Source: Candidatus Iainarchaeum sp. (GTDB lineage Archaea; B1Sed10-29; WALL01; JAGHAM01). Taken from it: DNA of 64,000 nt. The translations under genes were made by a program, and so were the position numbers. The notes under the pieces are model-generated. The model made no database searches and was not told the origin of the DNA. It worked only from the letters and a program-made list of their open reading frames with translations. The DNA lies in contig JAGHAM010000003.1 of assembly GCA_021161465.1 (NCBI GenBank), forward strand, positions 1 through 64,000. The letters run 5' to 3'. This document shows positions 22,032 to 32,068 of this stretch, piece by piece. Numbering within the stretch: the stretch's first letter is position 1; every line of letters begins with the position of its first letter.

Positions 22032-22076
22032 GTTGCAAAAACTGTTGTTTGGTTTCCTAACTAATTTATTTAAGTT

Positions 22077-22127
22077 ACGTTAGATAATCAAACAAAAACT
22101 TATATAAATAAGTTTGACGTTAGTTAA
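22077..22127. promoter_or_regulatory. Candidate nrdJ promoter/operator: 20-bp inverted repeat over the TATA box, flanked by ACGTTAG(A/T)TAA direct repeats
   Basis: AAACTTAT-ATAA-ATAAGTTT (22096-22115) contains TTATATAAAT; ACGTTAGATAA at 22077-22087 and ACGTTAGTTAA at 22117-22127, exactly 40 bp apart. Confidence 0.6.
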
Positions 22128-22202: not shown

Positions 22203-24296
22203 ATGGTTATTGAGAAGGTAAAGAAGAGAGACGGACGTGTTGCTGATTTTGAGAAAGTAAGGATAACTAATGCAATCTTCGCAGCGGCTGAGGCAGTTGG
22301 GGGCAAGGATTACAAAGAAGCTGAACGCCTGGCAGATGTTGTTACGGACTTACTAAGCAAGAAATTTAGGAGAACTATACCAACCGTTGAACAGATACAG
22401 GATGTAGTGGAGAAGGTCTTAATAGAGGAGGGCCACGCTAGGACAGCTAAGGCCTATATCCTGTACAGGCAGAAGAGAAAAATACTTAGAGAACTCAAAG
22501 CAGAGCTTCTTGACAAACCTGTTGATGATGTTGACCGTAAGTTGTCAGTTAATGCTTTGAAGGTTTTAGAGAGAAGATATTTGAAGAGAGACAGGAATGG
22601 AAAGGTAGTTGAAACACCAAAACAAATGTTTAGAAGGGTGGCTCATGCAGTCGCCCTTGCAGATACTTTCTACAATGGGGGCATGAAGGATACCGAAAAA
22701 GAATTTTATGAGATGATGACTAAGTTGGACTTTGTTCCGAACTCACCGACTCTGATGAATGCTGGAACAGAGCTTGGTCAGCTTTCTGCATGTTTTGTGC
22801 TTCCTGTTGAGGATTCAATGGAAGGGATATTTGAAACCCTCAAACACACAGCCTTGATACATCAATCAGGCGGTGGAACGGGCTTCAGCTTCTCGAGACT
22901 CAGGCCTTATGGCGATGTTGTAAAAAGTTCAGGCGGCATAGCCTCTGGTCCAGTTTCATTCATGAAAGTGTTTGACGCTGCCACAGACGTTATCAATCAG
23001 GGAGGCAAGAGAAGAGGAGCAAATATGGGAATACTCCGGGTGGACCACCCAGATATAGTGGATTTTATCACAGCGAAAGAGGATACAACGCAACTAACCA
23101 ACTTTAACATATCCGTTGCAGTCACGAACGAGTTCATGGAGGCCTCGCTTAAGAACAAAAACTATAAGCTGGTAAACCCCCACTCGAAGAAAGTTGTTAA
23201 GGAGTTACCTGCGAGAAAAATCTTTGACTTGATAATCACGATGGCGTGGAAGAATGGGGAACCAGGAATAATATTCCTAGACAAGATAAATAAGGATAAC
23301 CCAACTCCATCTATCGGTGAGATAGAGAGCACAAACCCGTGTGGCGAACAGCCATTGCTACCCTATGAGTCGTGTAACTTAGGTTCTGTAAATCTTGGCA
23401 ACATGGTGGAGGATGGTAAGATAAATTGGAAAAAACTGAAGGATACTGTCTGGAAAGCTGTTCATTTCCTTGATAATGTCATAGATGTAAACAATTTCCC
23501 CCTGCCGCAGATAGAGCAGATGACTAAGGGTAATAGGAAAATTGGCCTTGGCATAATGGGGTTTGCCGATATGCTGATTGCGTTGGGCATACCCTATAAC
23601 TCAGAGCAGGGTTTGGAGACAGCCAGGAAGGTTATGAAATTTGTTCAAACAGAGGGCAGGAAAGCCTCGCGACAGTTGGCCAAGGAAAGAGGGCCTTTCC
23701 CGAATTGCAGTAAGAGCGTGTACAAGAAGAACCCAATTAGGAATGCTACCGTTACAACTATAGCTCCAACTGGAACTATAAGTCTAATAGCAGGCGCGTC
23801 CAGTGGTATAGAGCCGTTATTTGCCATATCTTTCATAAGGAACGTGATGGACAACACAGAGCTGCTTGAGGTGCATCCTCTGTTTGAGAAGATAGCCAGG
23901 GATAGGGGTTTTTACTCACCTGCTTTGATGAAGAAAATAGCCCGTGTTGGCTCCATACAAAATCTGAAGGAAATCCCAAGAGACGTTAGGAGGATATTCG
24001 TAACAGCTTTGGATATATCACCAGAGTGGCATGTTAAGATGCAGGCAGCGTTCCAGGAGTACACAGACAATGCTGTATCGAAGACCATCAACTTTCCAAC
24101 TGATGCAACACCTAAGGATGTCGAGAAGGCATATATCCTTGCATATAAGCTTGCCTGCAAGGGTATAACAGTGTACAGGTATGGTAGCAGGAAAGGACAG
24201 GTCCTTAATATAGGCAAGGTTGAGAGGGATGGGGATGTCACAGTAGACGCTGACTTTTCAGGCAAGTTGGGGGAGTGCACGAACTGCAACACTTAG
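22203..24296 (+). CDS. nrdJ: Adenosylcobalamin-dependent (class II) ribonucleoside-diphosphate reductase
   Basis: N-terminal ATP cone; FVPNSPTLMNAGTELGQLSACFVLPV; ESTNPCGEQPLLPYESCNLGSVNLG; C-terminal GECTNCNT. Confidence 0.96.
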   Translation: MVIEKVKKRDGRVADFEKVRITNAIFAAAEAVGGKDYKEAERLADVVTDLLSKKFRRTIPTVEQIQDVVEKVLIEEGHARTAKAYILYRQKRKILRELKAELLDKPVDDVDRKLSVNALKVLERRYLKRDRNGKVVETPKQMFRRVAHAVALADTFYNGGMKDTEKEFYEMMTKLDFVPNSPTLMNAGTELGQLSACFVLPVEDSMEGIFETLKHTALIHQSGGGTGFSFSRLRPYGDVVKSSGGIASGPVSFMKVFDAATDVINQGGKRRGANMGILRVDHPDIVDFITAKEDTTQLTNFNISVAVTNEFMEASLKNKNYKLVNPHSKKVVKELPARKIFDLIITMAWKNGEPGIIFLDKINKDNPTPSIGEIESTNPCGEQPLLPYESCNLGSVNLGNMVEDGKINWKKLKDTVWKAVHFLDNVIDVNNFPLPQIEQMTKGNRKIGLGIMGFADMLIALGIPYNSEQGLETARKVMKFVQTEGRKASRQLAKERGPFPNCSKSVYKKNPIRNATVTTIAPTGTISLIAGASSGIEPLFAISFIRNVMDNTELLEVHPLFEKIARDRGFYSPALMKKIARVGSIQNLKEIPRDVRRIFVTALDISPEWHVKMQAAFQEYTDNAVSKTINFPTDATPKDVEKAYILAYKLACKGITVYRYGSRKGQVLNIGKVERDGDVTVDADFSGKLGECTNCNT

Positions 24297-24304
24297 TGAG
24301 AGAG

Positions 24305-24796
24305 ATGATAATCCTTTATACCGGCAATGGAAAAGGCAAGACCACGGCAGCACTTGGGCTTGCCTTAAGGAATGTTGGGCACGGCAGAAAAGTTGCTTTT
24401 ATCCAGTTCATGAAGCAATCCAAGAGTGGCGAGTCAAAGGTTAGCTTGACTGGTTTCGAGCTGAAGCAGTTTGGTAGGGACAAGCTGCTGACGAGAGACA
24501 CAGTTGAACAGGTTGACAAGGAGCTTGCGAATGAGGCTTTGGACTACGCGCGTTCAGTAAAATGTGACCTGCTGGTGCTTGATGAGGTGAATGTTGCCTT
24601 GTATTTTGGGTTGATAACTCTCGAAGATGTGCTGAAGCTTATAGACGAGAAAGAGCGCGAGGGAGTCCTTGTAGTGCTGACAGGCAGATACGCGCCAGAT
24701 GAGCTGGTTGAGCGCGCTGACATAGTGACGGAGATGAAGGAAGTTAAGCACGCCTTCAATGAAGGCGTTCCCGCACAGGAGGGTGTGGAATGGTGA
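24305..24796 (+). CDS. cobO: Cob(I)yrinic acid a,c-diamide adenosyltransferase (BtuR/CobA type)
   Basis: MIILYTGNGKGKTTAALGLALRNVGHGRKVAFIQFMK...LLVLDEVNVALYFGL. Confidence 0.93.
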   Translation: MIILYTGNGKGKTTAALGLALRNVGHGRKVAFIQFMKQSKSGESKVSLTGFELKQFGRDKLLTRDTVEQVDKELANEALDYARSVKCDLLVLDEVNVALYFGLITLEDVLKLIDEKEREGVLVVLTGRYAPDELVERADIVTEMKEVKHAFNEGVPAQEGVEW

Positions 24797-28371: not shown

Positions 28372-29340
28372 TTAAAACCCCAATAGCAGCAGGACAGCGC
28401 CTATGCTTAAGCCAAACACAAGATTGAATGCCTTGATTAAAAGGGAGTCGTTAAGTGTGTATGAAAAGAGAGGTAACATGCCATGCCCGTCCTGGACGAT
28501 TGAGCTCGTCAGTAAAACTGAGAAGGGTATCAAGCCGCTTGCAAACATGGTGACAAATGCCATGTGTGGCCCTGATTCTGGAATCAACCCAACCAACGCG
28601 CTTATGACGAGAACCAGCCAAATGTTTGCCCTGATAGTTTGGCTGAAGTTCCAGTATTGAAGGCCAAACCCAACAAAAATCAATGCAAACAAGGTCCAGA
28701 GGAATACTCTCCATATGTGCTTCTTAATGATGTGGTTCAGTATGTGCTCTTCCAGATAATGCTCCGAAGCAGTTGCAGTCATAACTATTGCAATAGTTGA
28801 CAGGGACAATAAGATGATTCTATCAGGCTCGTCCCAGCTCTGTGGCCCCCAGGCACCAATGAGGTTCAATGCAATGATTGCAACAAAGGCGAGAACTAGC
28901 GCATACCTTGCAGGTGATAACTTTGGGAACTCCAGCAGGACAGATGGCTTGAAAGGATTTCTCCCCTTGACTTTGTGCATCTTTTGTAGTCTGCACTCCT
29001 TGCATGGTGAGATTTTGAGGAAATTTGCTAGTTTGTCAGCTAACCAGGCACCGATGATACCTAAACCAAACAAGATTGCAAATAGCATCAATGCTTCCTT
29101 TGGGAACATAGCTAGCATGACAAAGGACTCATCGCCTGAGGTAGCAATCATCCCTCCAACTATGGCACCAAATGTTATGAGACCATGAACATAGAGGGAT
29201 ACATTCATAAATGCCCCCAAACAACCAGGAGTGGCACCCAGGAACGAGGCTATGGAATATTGTCGCAGTTTACCTCCCCGTATGGCTTTCTCAAGTTTGC
29301 CCCTTGTGACAACATCAAAATAATCGATGAGGAGCATCAT
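28372..29340 (-). CDS. Putative 10TM heavy-metal exporter (ArsP_2-like); N-terminus probably extends upstream through a frameshift
   Basis: DYFDVVTRGKLEKAIRGGKLRQYSIASFLGATPGCLGAFMNVSLYVHGLITFGAIVGGMIATSGDESFVMLAMFPKEAL. Confidence 0.78.
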   Translation of the reverse strand: MMLLIDYFDVVTRGKLEKAIRGGKLRQYSIASFLGATPGCLGAFMNVSLYVHGLITFGAIVGGMIATSGDESFVMLAMFPKEALMLFAILFGLGIIGAWLADKLANFLKISPCKECRLQKMHKVKGRNPFKPSVLLEFPKLSPARYALVLAFVAIIALNLIGAWGPQSWDEPDRIILLSLSTIAIVMTATASEHYLEEHILNHIIKKHIWRVFLWTLFALIFVGFGLQYWNFSQTIRANIWLVLVISALVGLIPESGPHMAFVTMFASGLIPFSVLLTSSIVQDGHGMLPLFSYTLNDSLLIKAFNLVFGLSIGAVLLLLGF

Positions 29341-29589: not shown

Positions 29590-31557
29590 CTATCTAGCTT
29601 TCAAAGTGAAGGCTACAAGGTCCTCCTTTTCCAGAAGGTCATATATGGTGTCTATTGGCTTTTCCCATTCAGGAAGAATGAGCTTGGCCGCGCCGTTGCA
29701 GTATTGCTGCAGTTTTATCTCAGTGTCAATCCATTTTTCAGTGTCTGGGTAGTTGTGGGTGAAACCATTTGCTGGATAAACCTCCTTAACTCCAAATCTG
29801 CTCTCATTCATCTTCCTGAACCTCTCTGATGCCCGCCTTGCCTCTAGACAACCAAACAACAGGAATACATCACCGGCCTCATTGAAGCTTTCAAGTTTCC
29901 TGTTTACGTAGGCTAACACTTTGTCTGCAAAAGCGAACGCGTCTGGGCTCTTGTTTATCTCTCTACCAGTGTACTCCTTGACGGCGTTGTCCAGCCCTAT
30001 GACATTGACAACAGTTGGCGCGTTTTCAAGCGAGTAATACTCCTCCGCGCCAAAGCTTTGTGTCAGGAAGGAGAGTATCTTATCCTTGTGGAGCCTTGTT
30101 TCGATTATTTTCTTCTTGGTTTCATGTGTTTTCCTGCCAGCCTCAAGGGCAGTATCCAGCTGGTTGAAGAATTGTGGGTCTTCTTTGCTAGTCATTGCTA
30201 TCTTTGGAAGGTTTATTGAAATCTCCTGCAGAACACCACTCCTTATTGTAGTGAACCATTTTTTGTCTTTTCCCGGCATCAGCTGGTTCGGGAAAATCAT
30301 ATTAAGATTCTGTCCAAACCTTTTGTTCCTCAAATTCAGGAACGTCAGGTCGTTCTTCTGTAGGAATCTTTTTATTGGCTCTTCAAGTGCGTGGGGTATT
30401 GGGCCATCCCTAATTTTTAGAACAACCCGTGGTATATGGAAAGGCTTGCCATGCATGTCCCCCTCAGCCATCACTTCCAGGAACAAGCTTAAGAACCGTA
30501 TGCTCTCCCTTTCATAGTCATAATATGTATCCTGTCCTGTTATGCCTTTTGGCAGTATTGCTTTTTCTTTTTTAAGGAAAGCCGGCGTTTCAAGCTCAAA
30601 GTTTAGGGTAGGCCTGGCAAGGACGCCTTTTGCAGCATATATCTGGTTAAGCTCGTAAAGGAATGTCTGCATGATTTGTTTCACGCCGGCTTCATCCTCG
30701 TTTATGATATATGGTGAGAGAAAGCTGTTGAAGAAGTCGAATCCCTGGCCACCCGATAGATGGGTTTCACCGGTGATTAAAACGCGCAATGCGTGGCTCA
30801 TCGCTACACCGGGCTTCTTTGCTGGTTTGGATGCTATGCTTACCTCACGGTTTCCATCAGGGACAAAACCATTCTTAAGGAACCACCGCATGTCATTCTG
30901 CAGGCTGGTTGGCCTTGTTGCAAAGCAGGATAAATCATGTATGTGGATGAGTCCAACTAAATGATATTTTGAGACTTCCTGGGGGAGAAGTTTAACCAGC
31001 GCGTACTCTTCAGCTATTGAGTCACCAAACTTCTGGTGAAGCACTTCAGGGTTTGATGGATTCTCCCTTATCACTCTAGCAACATCATATATCGGTAAGC
31101 CCAAACGTGTATACTCTTTCTTTGCCTGCATGTATTTTCGCTCTAACAGCTTTGAGTTCACCATCTCTCTTATCAATGGAGCTGAGATATGCCTGAGTTC
31201 AAGTCTCCGTATATCAGACTCAACTTCACCAGCTATCTCCTCGCAAACACTTTTTGCCAATGTTGTTTCCCTTAACAGGCTCTCAACAATTTTCTCCTTG
31301 CTGAAGGATGTCAAAATTCCCTCAGATGTTCTAACGTAAACCCGGTGGTAGTTCTCAAACTTGTTTGCAGATTCCTCATCCCTTTCTCTTAGCTTCTGTA
31401 TTATAAGGTCGTTTATTTCCTCTTCTGACATAGCTGGGGTAACTTGGTCTTGTAGGCCAAGCGCCACCTCGGTTGCGAGCCAGAAACTCACGCCGGCCTT
31501 GGTGCACTTGTCCTGAATCACTTTTGGGTTGAACTTTTGAGCAGGAGTAGAAGCCAT
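29590..31557 (-). CDS. NrdD-like (anaerobic RNR family) protein without a recognizable glycyl-radical C-terminus
   Basis: ATP-cone-like N-terminus; HIHDLSCFATRPTSLQNDMRWFLKNG; LSGGQGFDFFNSFLSPYI; ISINLPKIA. ORF ends ...EKEDLVAFTLKAR without CxxC pairs or RVxGY. Confidence 0.8.
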   Translation of the reverse strand: MASTPAQKFNPKVIQDKCTKAGVSFWLATEVALGLQDQVTPAMSEEEINDLIIQKLRERDEESANKFENYHRVYVRTSEGILTSFSKEKIVESLLRETTLAKSVCEEIAGEVESDIRRLELRHISAPLIREMVNSKLLERKYMQAKKEYTRLGLPIYDVARVIRENPSNPEVLHQKFGDSIAEEYALVKLLPQEVSKYHLVGLIHIHDLSCFATRPTSLQNDMRWFLKNGFVPDGNREVSIASKPAKKPGVAMSHALRVLITGETHLSGGQGFDFFNSFLSPYIINEDEAGVKQIMQTFLYELNQIYAAKGVLARPTLNFELETPAFLKKEKAILPKGITGQDTYYDYERESIRFLSLFLEVMAEGDMHGKPFHIPRVVLKIRDGPIPHALEEPIKRFLQKNDLTFLNLRNKRFGQNLNMIFPNQLMPGKDKKWFTTIRSGVLQEISINLPKIAMTSKEDPQFFNQLDTALEAGRKTHETKKKIIETRLHKDKILSFLTQSFGAEEYYSLENAPTVVNVIGLDNAVKEYTGREINKSPDAFAFADKVLAYVNRKLESFNEAGDVFLLFGCLEARRASERFRKMNESRFGVKEVYPANGFTHNYPDTEKWIDTEIKLQQYCNGAAKLILPEWEKPIDTIYDLLEKEDLVAFTLKAR

Positions 31558-31615
31558 GATGATTTTTTATAGTTGAAAGTTTATAATCATAACAGCAAGA
31601 GCCTCTCTGGTTCGG

Positions 31616-32068
31616 ATGTTTAACCGTGGTTTCATGGAACTAGATGAAATAGATTTGAAGATACTTGACCTGCTTTCAAAGAATTCAAGGATGTCATACT
31701 CAGACCTAGCTAGGCATTTCGGCTTTTCGGATGTTGCCATAAGAAAGAGGATAGACAAGCTGGTCGAGAGTAAGGTCATAAAGCGGTTCACGACCGAGGT
31801 AGACCACAAGAAGCTCGGGAAAAATGTGTCTGCATTTATCTTCTTTAAAACGCGCTCTGATAAGACTCAGGAGATAGCACAGCAACTCCTGCAGCTGGAT
31901 GGAATCAGCGAAGTATTTATATCCCTTGGGGTTTACGATATAATTGCAAGAGCGTATTGCGGGGATGTTGCCGAGCTGAAAGACCTTACAGAACGAAAGC
32001 TGAACGAAATTAATGGCATTCTTGAAGTCAGGCCTTCGATAGTATTCAGCGAGTTGAGGGGTGCTTAG
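31616..32068 (+). CDS. Lrp/AsnC family transcriptional regulator
   Basis: LDEIDLKILDLLSKNSRMSYSDLARHFGFSDVAIRKRIDKLVESKVIKRFT plus RAM-like C-terminus. Confidence 0.93.
   Translation: MFNRGFMELDEIDLKILDLLSKNSRMSYSDLARHFGFSDVAIRKRIDKLVESKVIKRFTTEVDHKKLGKNVSAFIFFKTRSDKTQEIAQQLLQLDGISEVFISLGVYDIIARAYCGDVAELKDLTERKLNEINGILEVRPSIVFSELRGA

Follow-up and report, generated by a model that had tools for sequence, protein, structure and literature searches.

To our knowledge, little is known about how transcription of ribonucleotide reductase (RNR) genes is controlled in most archaea. In the class III enzyme NrdD, the roles of the two active-site cysteines, the glycyl radical, the flap, the triphosphate loop, loop 2 and the HxHD motif have been described for the P. 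copri protein (PMC11226230). Archaeal Lrp proteins bind palindromes with a spacing of two or three helical turns, in many cases immediately upstream of a promoter (PMC2995911), and the boxes of NrdR are likewise spaced by whole helical turns (PMC12051234). Here we analysed a 64,000-nucleotide stretch of a Candidatus Iainarchaeum sp. genome (the window), in which a gene of the NrdD type, here called NrdD', is divergent from a gene of the Lrp family.

Results

An intact gene with an NrdD fold

The gene and its N-terminal domains are as follows.

29590..31557, minus strand: NrdD', a very probable pseudoenzyme with an NrdD fold; 655 aa plus stop, intact ORF
31345..31557, minus strand: N-terminal helical domain, residues 1-71, from DSSP of the model; no beta-hairpin lid
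31078..31344, minus strand: ATP-cone, residues 72-160; PF03477 match at residues 74-148

NrdD' matched the Pfam profile NRDD (PF13597) with 198.5 bits over profile positions 6-470 of 562, and scored 197 bits against the NrdD equivalog TIGR02487, which is below the cut-off of 326. The ATP-cone passed its threshold (39.4 bits versus 25.8), and the Pfam search returned these two domains alone, with no Zn-ribbon DNA-binding domain of the NrdR type. The top PDB fold matches of the AlphaFold2 model (mean pLDDT 87.7, pTM 0.78) were class III RNRs, with P. copri NrdD (8p2c) found by Foldseek at an E value of 3e-25 and a TM score of about 0.6-0.74, and the barrel is of the NrdD type by Pfam, model and fold search alike. 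Short, weak phmmer matches to cytochrome b5 were discarded. The lid of the ATP-cone reads RT (VRTS) where KR is usual; because working archaeal NrdDs also have VRTS, this substitution is no sign of lost binding. Judging from the model, residues 1-71 may form a further, cone-like domain.

Catalytic parts are missing from NrdD'

We compared the motifs of 14 aligned members of the NrdD' clade with those of 20 canonical archaeal NrdDs, and mapped the P. copri roles onto NrdD' columns by motif and order, partly via an alignment with T4. Four sites were of particular interest.

30238..30360, minus strand: finger-loop region, residues 400-440; no Cys, N417-L418 replaces CC/GC in the alignment
30904..30906, minus strand: Ser218, replacing the second active-site Cys (position of P. 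copri Cys171 and T4 Cys79)
30934..30945, minus strand: HIHD 205-208, the triphosphate-binding HxHD motif, kept in the alignment across the order
30211..30213, minus strand: Asn449, equivalent of the P. copri NrdD active-site Asn435, kept in the alignment

The preliminary description of this DNA had proposed an NrdD-like pseudoenzyme whose reading frame ends without CxxC zinc pairs and RVxGY, whose finger-loop region has no Cys and whose tail is not restored by any other frame, and our analysis bears this out. The two finger-loop columns hold Cys in 18/20 and 20/20 canonical NrdDs, and no thiyl-radical Cys was found there in any of the 14 clade members, so that no Cys of NrdD' aligns with the canonical thiyl residue. 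The first barrel strand carries the second active-site Cys in 20/20 canonical NrdDs; this residue is Ser or Ala in 14/14 members of the clade, across which the NxN flap, the TPAE triphosphate loop, the loop-2 GGQ and the TNS motif have also been lost. In the alignment, NrdD' stops at the point where the barrel of canonical NrdDs is followed by the Zn cysteines and, as the NRDD profile match stops at position 470 of 562, the C-terminal Zn/glycyl-radical part is absent. Orthologues share this truncation, since none of the 14 keeps the RVxGY glycyl-radical loop. Regular-expression matches to RVLAY or RVMAY in some members lie within a helix (ERVLAYAxxKL) and were discarded. Downstream frames of NrdD' restore neither RVxGY nor Zn cysteines, and the motif occurs nowhere else in the window; no separate glycyl-radical-domain ORF follows NrdD' in this genome, and a tail probe of the remaining genome, a search run without a positive control, gave no match.

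HIHD 205-208 and Asn449 are invariant across the order, and HxHD has decayed in class-level members. Given the missing parts, established RNR chemistry makes ribonucleotide reduction by the known mechanism impossible for NrdD', which on this evidence is almost certainly a pseudoenzyme.

The working RNR belongs to either class

The window carries a class II RNR, the NrdJ gene that had been pointed out at the outset, followed by an overlapping cobalamin gene.

22203..24296, plus strand: NrdJ, class II RNR with its own ATP-cone, above the NCBIfam cut-off (PRK08665)
24275..24796, plus strand: cob(I)alamin adenosyltransferase (CobA-type), overlapping the end of nrdJ

NrdJ is the working RNR of this genome, and a genome-wide check for a full NrdD returned a single PF13597 match, NrdD' itself. 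Among the relatives, NrdJ was found in G003, G006, G008, G011, G013, G014 and G018, and working NrdDs in G001, G002, G004, G005, G007, G009, G010 and G012 and also in G006 and G013. A working RNR normally accompanies NrdD' and, being NrdJ or NrdD depending on the relative, indicates that NrdD' is kept with either class. In the working NrdDs of these archaea, the glycyl-radical domain is often encoded separately by a small ORF downstream (L038, L039, L041, L046, L047, L044, L045, L035, L037 and L056) and is sometimes fused to a glutaredoxin-like domain.

A divergent Lrp gene and shared palindromic boxes

The Lrp gene and the boxes lie at the following positions.

31616..32068, plus strand: Lrp/AsnC-family regulator, divergent from NrdD'; probable start 31634 (MELDEID)
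31609..31625: 17-bp palindrome GGTTCGGATGTTTAACC between NrdD' and Lrp, a putative Lrp operator
22046..22062: box TGTTTGGTTTCCTAACT upstream of NrdJ, matrix score 14.6
22078..22094: second box CGTTAGATAATCAAACA upstream of NrdJ, 32 bp from the first

The Lrp protein has an AsnC-type HTH (PF13404) and a RAM ligand domain (PF01037), both above cut-off, and its gene is divergent from NrdD' in almost every complete neighbourhood of the order, as well as in several at class level. On the other side of NrdD', a putative 10-TM heavy-metal (arsenic-type) exporter is encoded downstream at 28372-29340, where it was not seen in relatives.

The Lrp-NrdD' gap contains a 17-bp palindrome with the pattern RGTT[C/A]G-N5-C[G/T]AACY, both here and in G001, G005, G007 and G010, with a variant in G002. 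We built a matrix from seven training sites, five in Lrp-NrdD' gaps and two ahead of NrdG-like genes (G002 and G004), with no site from the upstream region of any working RNR gene, and scanned 300 bp upstream of genes at a threshold score of 11 or more. Boxes were found upstream of 8/12 working RNR genes in the order, compared with 1.3% of 376 other upstream regions. For each of these eight genes, no more than 0.7% of order-1 Markov-resampled sequences reached the observed score, and the mean best score at working RNR genes was 12.2, compared with 2.1 +/- 1.5 (maximum 10.3) for 500 column-permuted matrices. The same palindrome stands ahead of NrdG-like genes in G002 and G004 (L051:7143 and L057:10766).

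Boxes are spaced by 31, 32 or 63 bp, and CGTTAGATAATCAAACA directly precedes a TATA-like element (about 22100-22111) upstream of nrdJ. This spacing and promoter-proximal position match archaeal Lrp sites, making the neighbouring Lrp the natural candidate binder; by analogy, we infer that Lrp binds the boxes. The matrix scan found no box upstream of NrdJ in G006, G011, G013 and G014, or around the Lrp-NrdD' pair in several class-level genomes, indicating that not all of these genomes have the operator, or have it with this sequence. A whole-genome search with the box pattern gave 6 matches per strand versus 3-4 for a reversed control, so the loose consensus alone cannot list a regulon.

Catalytic loss across a phylum, and elsewhere

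NrdD' orthologues were found in 17 of the 19 genomes examined for the phylum, and the catalytic parts are missing in all of them where sequenced; the two genomes without NrdD' are 78-81% complete. The orthologues form one clade with support of 100/100 in two trees. Judged from these sequences, the catalytic loss is phylum-wide and not a local truncation.

Outside the phylum, an Lrp-NrdD pair was found in three genomes. G259 has an intact NrdD paired with an Lrp that is 47% identical. The Lrp-linked NrdD of G040 is without both Cys and keeps RTSGY. In G122 (L156), the finger CC has become YY, TPAE has become APDI and the glycyl loop has decayed (NKIGY, then an early stop), apparently a further, independent pseudoenzyme. 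The G259/G122 pair has tree support of 100/99, and the placement of G040 differs between the two trees. An intact Lrp-linked NrdD together with degraded forms indicates that the Lrp link came first and catalytic loss afterwards, and loss in Lrp-linked NrdDs probably occurred more than once. If the regulatory model discussed below holds, the stages of this change would be visible in living lineages, from an intact enzyme with Lrp (G259), through loss of Cys with the glycyl domain kept (G040) and decay of the finger and glycyl loops (G122), to the loss of everything in the NrdD' phylum.

Three genomes of another archaeal phylum (G050, G063 and G064; loci L068, L092 and L093) encode a pseudo-NrdD without the finger Cys and the glycyl-radical domain. 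Its gene is divergent from a TrmB-like regulator and runs straight into two tandem NrdJ-type genes, then cobA, and its position in the tree is that of a distinct origin. One NrdJ-type gene at these loci is about 840 aa, with no ATP-cone detected.

Discussion

The preliminary description had offered a nucleotide sensor, a scaffold or a new enzyme as possible roles. The Lrp linkage, the shared putative operator and the conserved ATP-cone fit a regulatory or sensor role better than the other two. We therefore propose, with a probability of roughly 55% on these sequence comparisons, that NrdD' is a dead NrdD paralogue retained as the nucleotide-binding part of an Lrp-type control of the working RNR. 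Other links with dNTP metabolism also count for this regulatory reading: a dCMP deaminase gene and an NrdG-like gene adjoin NrdD' in G004, and the pseudo-NrdD of G050-type genomes is next to NrdJs. NrdD' thus probably helps to control the supply of DNA precursors.

In the proposed mechanism, Lrp would occupy the boxes upstream of the working RNR gene as well as those of the Lrp-NrdD' pair. The ATP-cone of NrdD', perhaps together with the old effector site, might read ATP/dATP or dNTP levels, which is the least certain step. The signal would then go either to Lrp, in which case the system would do the work of bacterial NrdR, or directly to the RNR. More tentative, and less likely than not, is the specific form in which NrdD' senses dNTPs directly and acts through Lrp as DNA binder, an archaeal NrdR counterpart assembled from a dead RNR and an Lrp, the two together governing the transcription of the cell's RNR, of whichever class.

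The distribution of conservation within NrdD' bears on these ideas. The ATP-cone is the best conserved region in the NrdD' clade (0.72) and the finger loop scores 0.49, whereas in working NrdDs of the same phylum the values are 0.34 and 0.73. More broadly, the ATP-cone and the dimer half are the best conserved parts of NrdD', and the catalytic half is the least conserved. This reversal indicates that constraint has moved from catalysis to the regulatory half. A conserved ATP-cone and dimer half would also suit a direct RNR partner, which would leave transcription alone and, in hetero-oligomers with NrdJ or NrdD, alter the activity or specificity of the RNR, and the independent pseudo-NrdD that directly precedes two NrdJ-type genes in G050-type archaea fits such an arrangement. 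However, NrdD' persists alongside RNRs of either class, between which there is little common sequence surface, and its constant neighbour is Lrp, not an RNR. We consider a direct partner unlikely.

Less likely again is a new enzyme, in which the old barrel would bind a nucleotide and work with an NrdG-like radical-SAM protein or by other chemistry. The invariance of HIHD 205-208 and Asn449 within the order would suit it, as would the NrdG-like genes. The earlier remark that no NrdG is nearby is correct for the window; it does not extend to the genome (976 kb, 93% complete), which has NrdG-like radical-SAM genes elsewhere. One of these (C30:54463-55152) sits on contig C30 with genes for a dCMP deaminase and LigT and is a member of the block that adjoins NrdD' in related genomes, the order in G004 being NrdD', dCMP deaminase, NrdG-like and LigT. 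An NrdG-like gene with an intact CX3CX2C is beside or near NrdD' in G002, G003, G004 and G006. However, CX3CX2C has been lost in G005 and G007, G011 and G018 gave no NrdG-like match, and in G009 the NrdG-like gene comes after a working NrdD; the idea of a strict NrdD' partner was rejected on these grounds. The decay of HxHD at the class level and the weak conservation of the catalytic half also argue against a new enzyme. Two NrdG-like genes, L038:2257-2814 and L039:1777-2364, are without CX3CX2C; each of the two genomes concerned further carries a full NrdD/NrdG set beside NrdD'.

That NrdD' is a functionless, decaying relic or an assembly artefact is very improbable. It is shorter than NrdD, and the genomes are small draft assemblies, one of them named as a metagenome-assembled genome. 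Nevertheless, ten order-level frames are open, with dN of 0.18-0.47 and dS of 1.2 or higher or saturated; because dS is saturated in most pairs, we state selection qualitatively. Between this genome (G000) and its nearest relative (G001), identity is 72% for NrdD', compared with 65% for ThrRS and 67% for Elp3, and 78% for Lrp. Across ten genomes, 154 residues of NrdD' are invariant, and a similar C-terminal ending recurs in many independent assemblies. Open frames, the dN and dS values and conservation at least equal to that of ThrRS and Elp3 indicate that NrdD' is functional and not decaying.

Least probable of all is a still active class III RNR with its Cys and glycyl radical supplied by another polypeptide: split glycyl-radical ORFs do occur with working NrdDs in these archaea, but NrdD' has none after it, the genome probe (without positive control) was empty, and the losses reach beyond the glycyl domain to the thiyl Cys, the second Cys, the flap and the phosphate loop.

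If the regulatory model is true, an enzyme has been converted into a sensor of its own product. Genome annotation can also attribute an anaerobic RNR to these archaea on account of NrdD', which does not supply one. In the open-access PMC papers that we searched, we found no RNR turned conserved non-enzyme and no archaeal Lrp/AsnC protein with a connection to either RNR genes or a dead RNR.

Comparison with known systems

Compared with the class III RNR structures of P. copri, T4 and T. maritima, NrdD' shares the fold, the ATP-cone, HxHD and the active-site Asn, and differs in having no thiyl Cys, second Cys, NxN flap, TPAE, GGQ, Zn site or glycyl radical. The pseudo-NrdD of G050, G063 and G064 resembles NrdD' in keeping the ATP-cone without the finger Cys or glycyl-radical domain; unlike NrdD', it is of independent origin, keeps the second Cys and lies beside NrdJ and a TrmB-like regulator rather than Lrp. 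The likeness to archaeal Lrp/AsnC systems (Ss-LrpB, LysM and FL11) lies in a neighbour with HTH and RAM domains and in palindromes about three helical turns apart, just upstream of a promoter. Finally, NrdD' would, like bacterial NrdR, be a protein that has an ATP-cone and is connected with the transcription of RNR genes, and in both systems paired boxes lie whole helical turns from each other upstream of RNR genes and near the gene for the ATP-cone protein. Unlike NrdR, NrdD' has neither a Zn-ribbon nor any other DNA-binding domain; DNA binding would fall to a separate protein, for which Lrp is the candidate, and the boxes differ in sequence.
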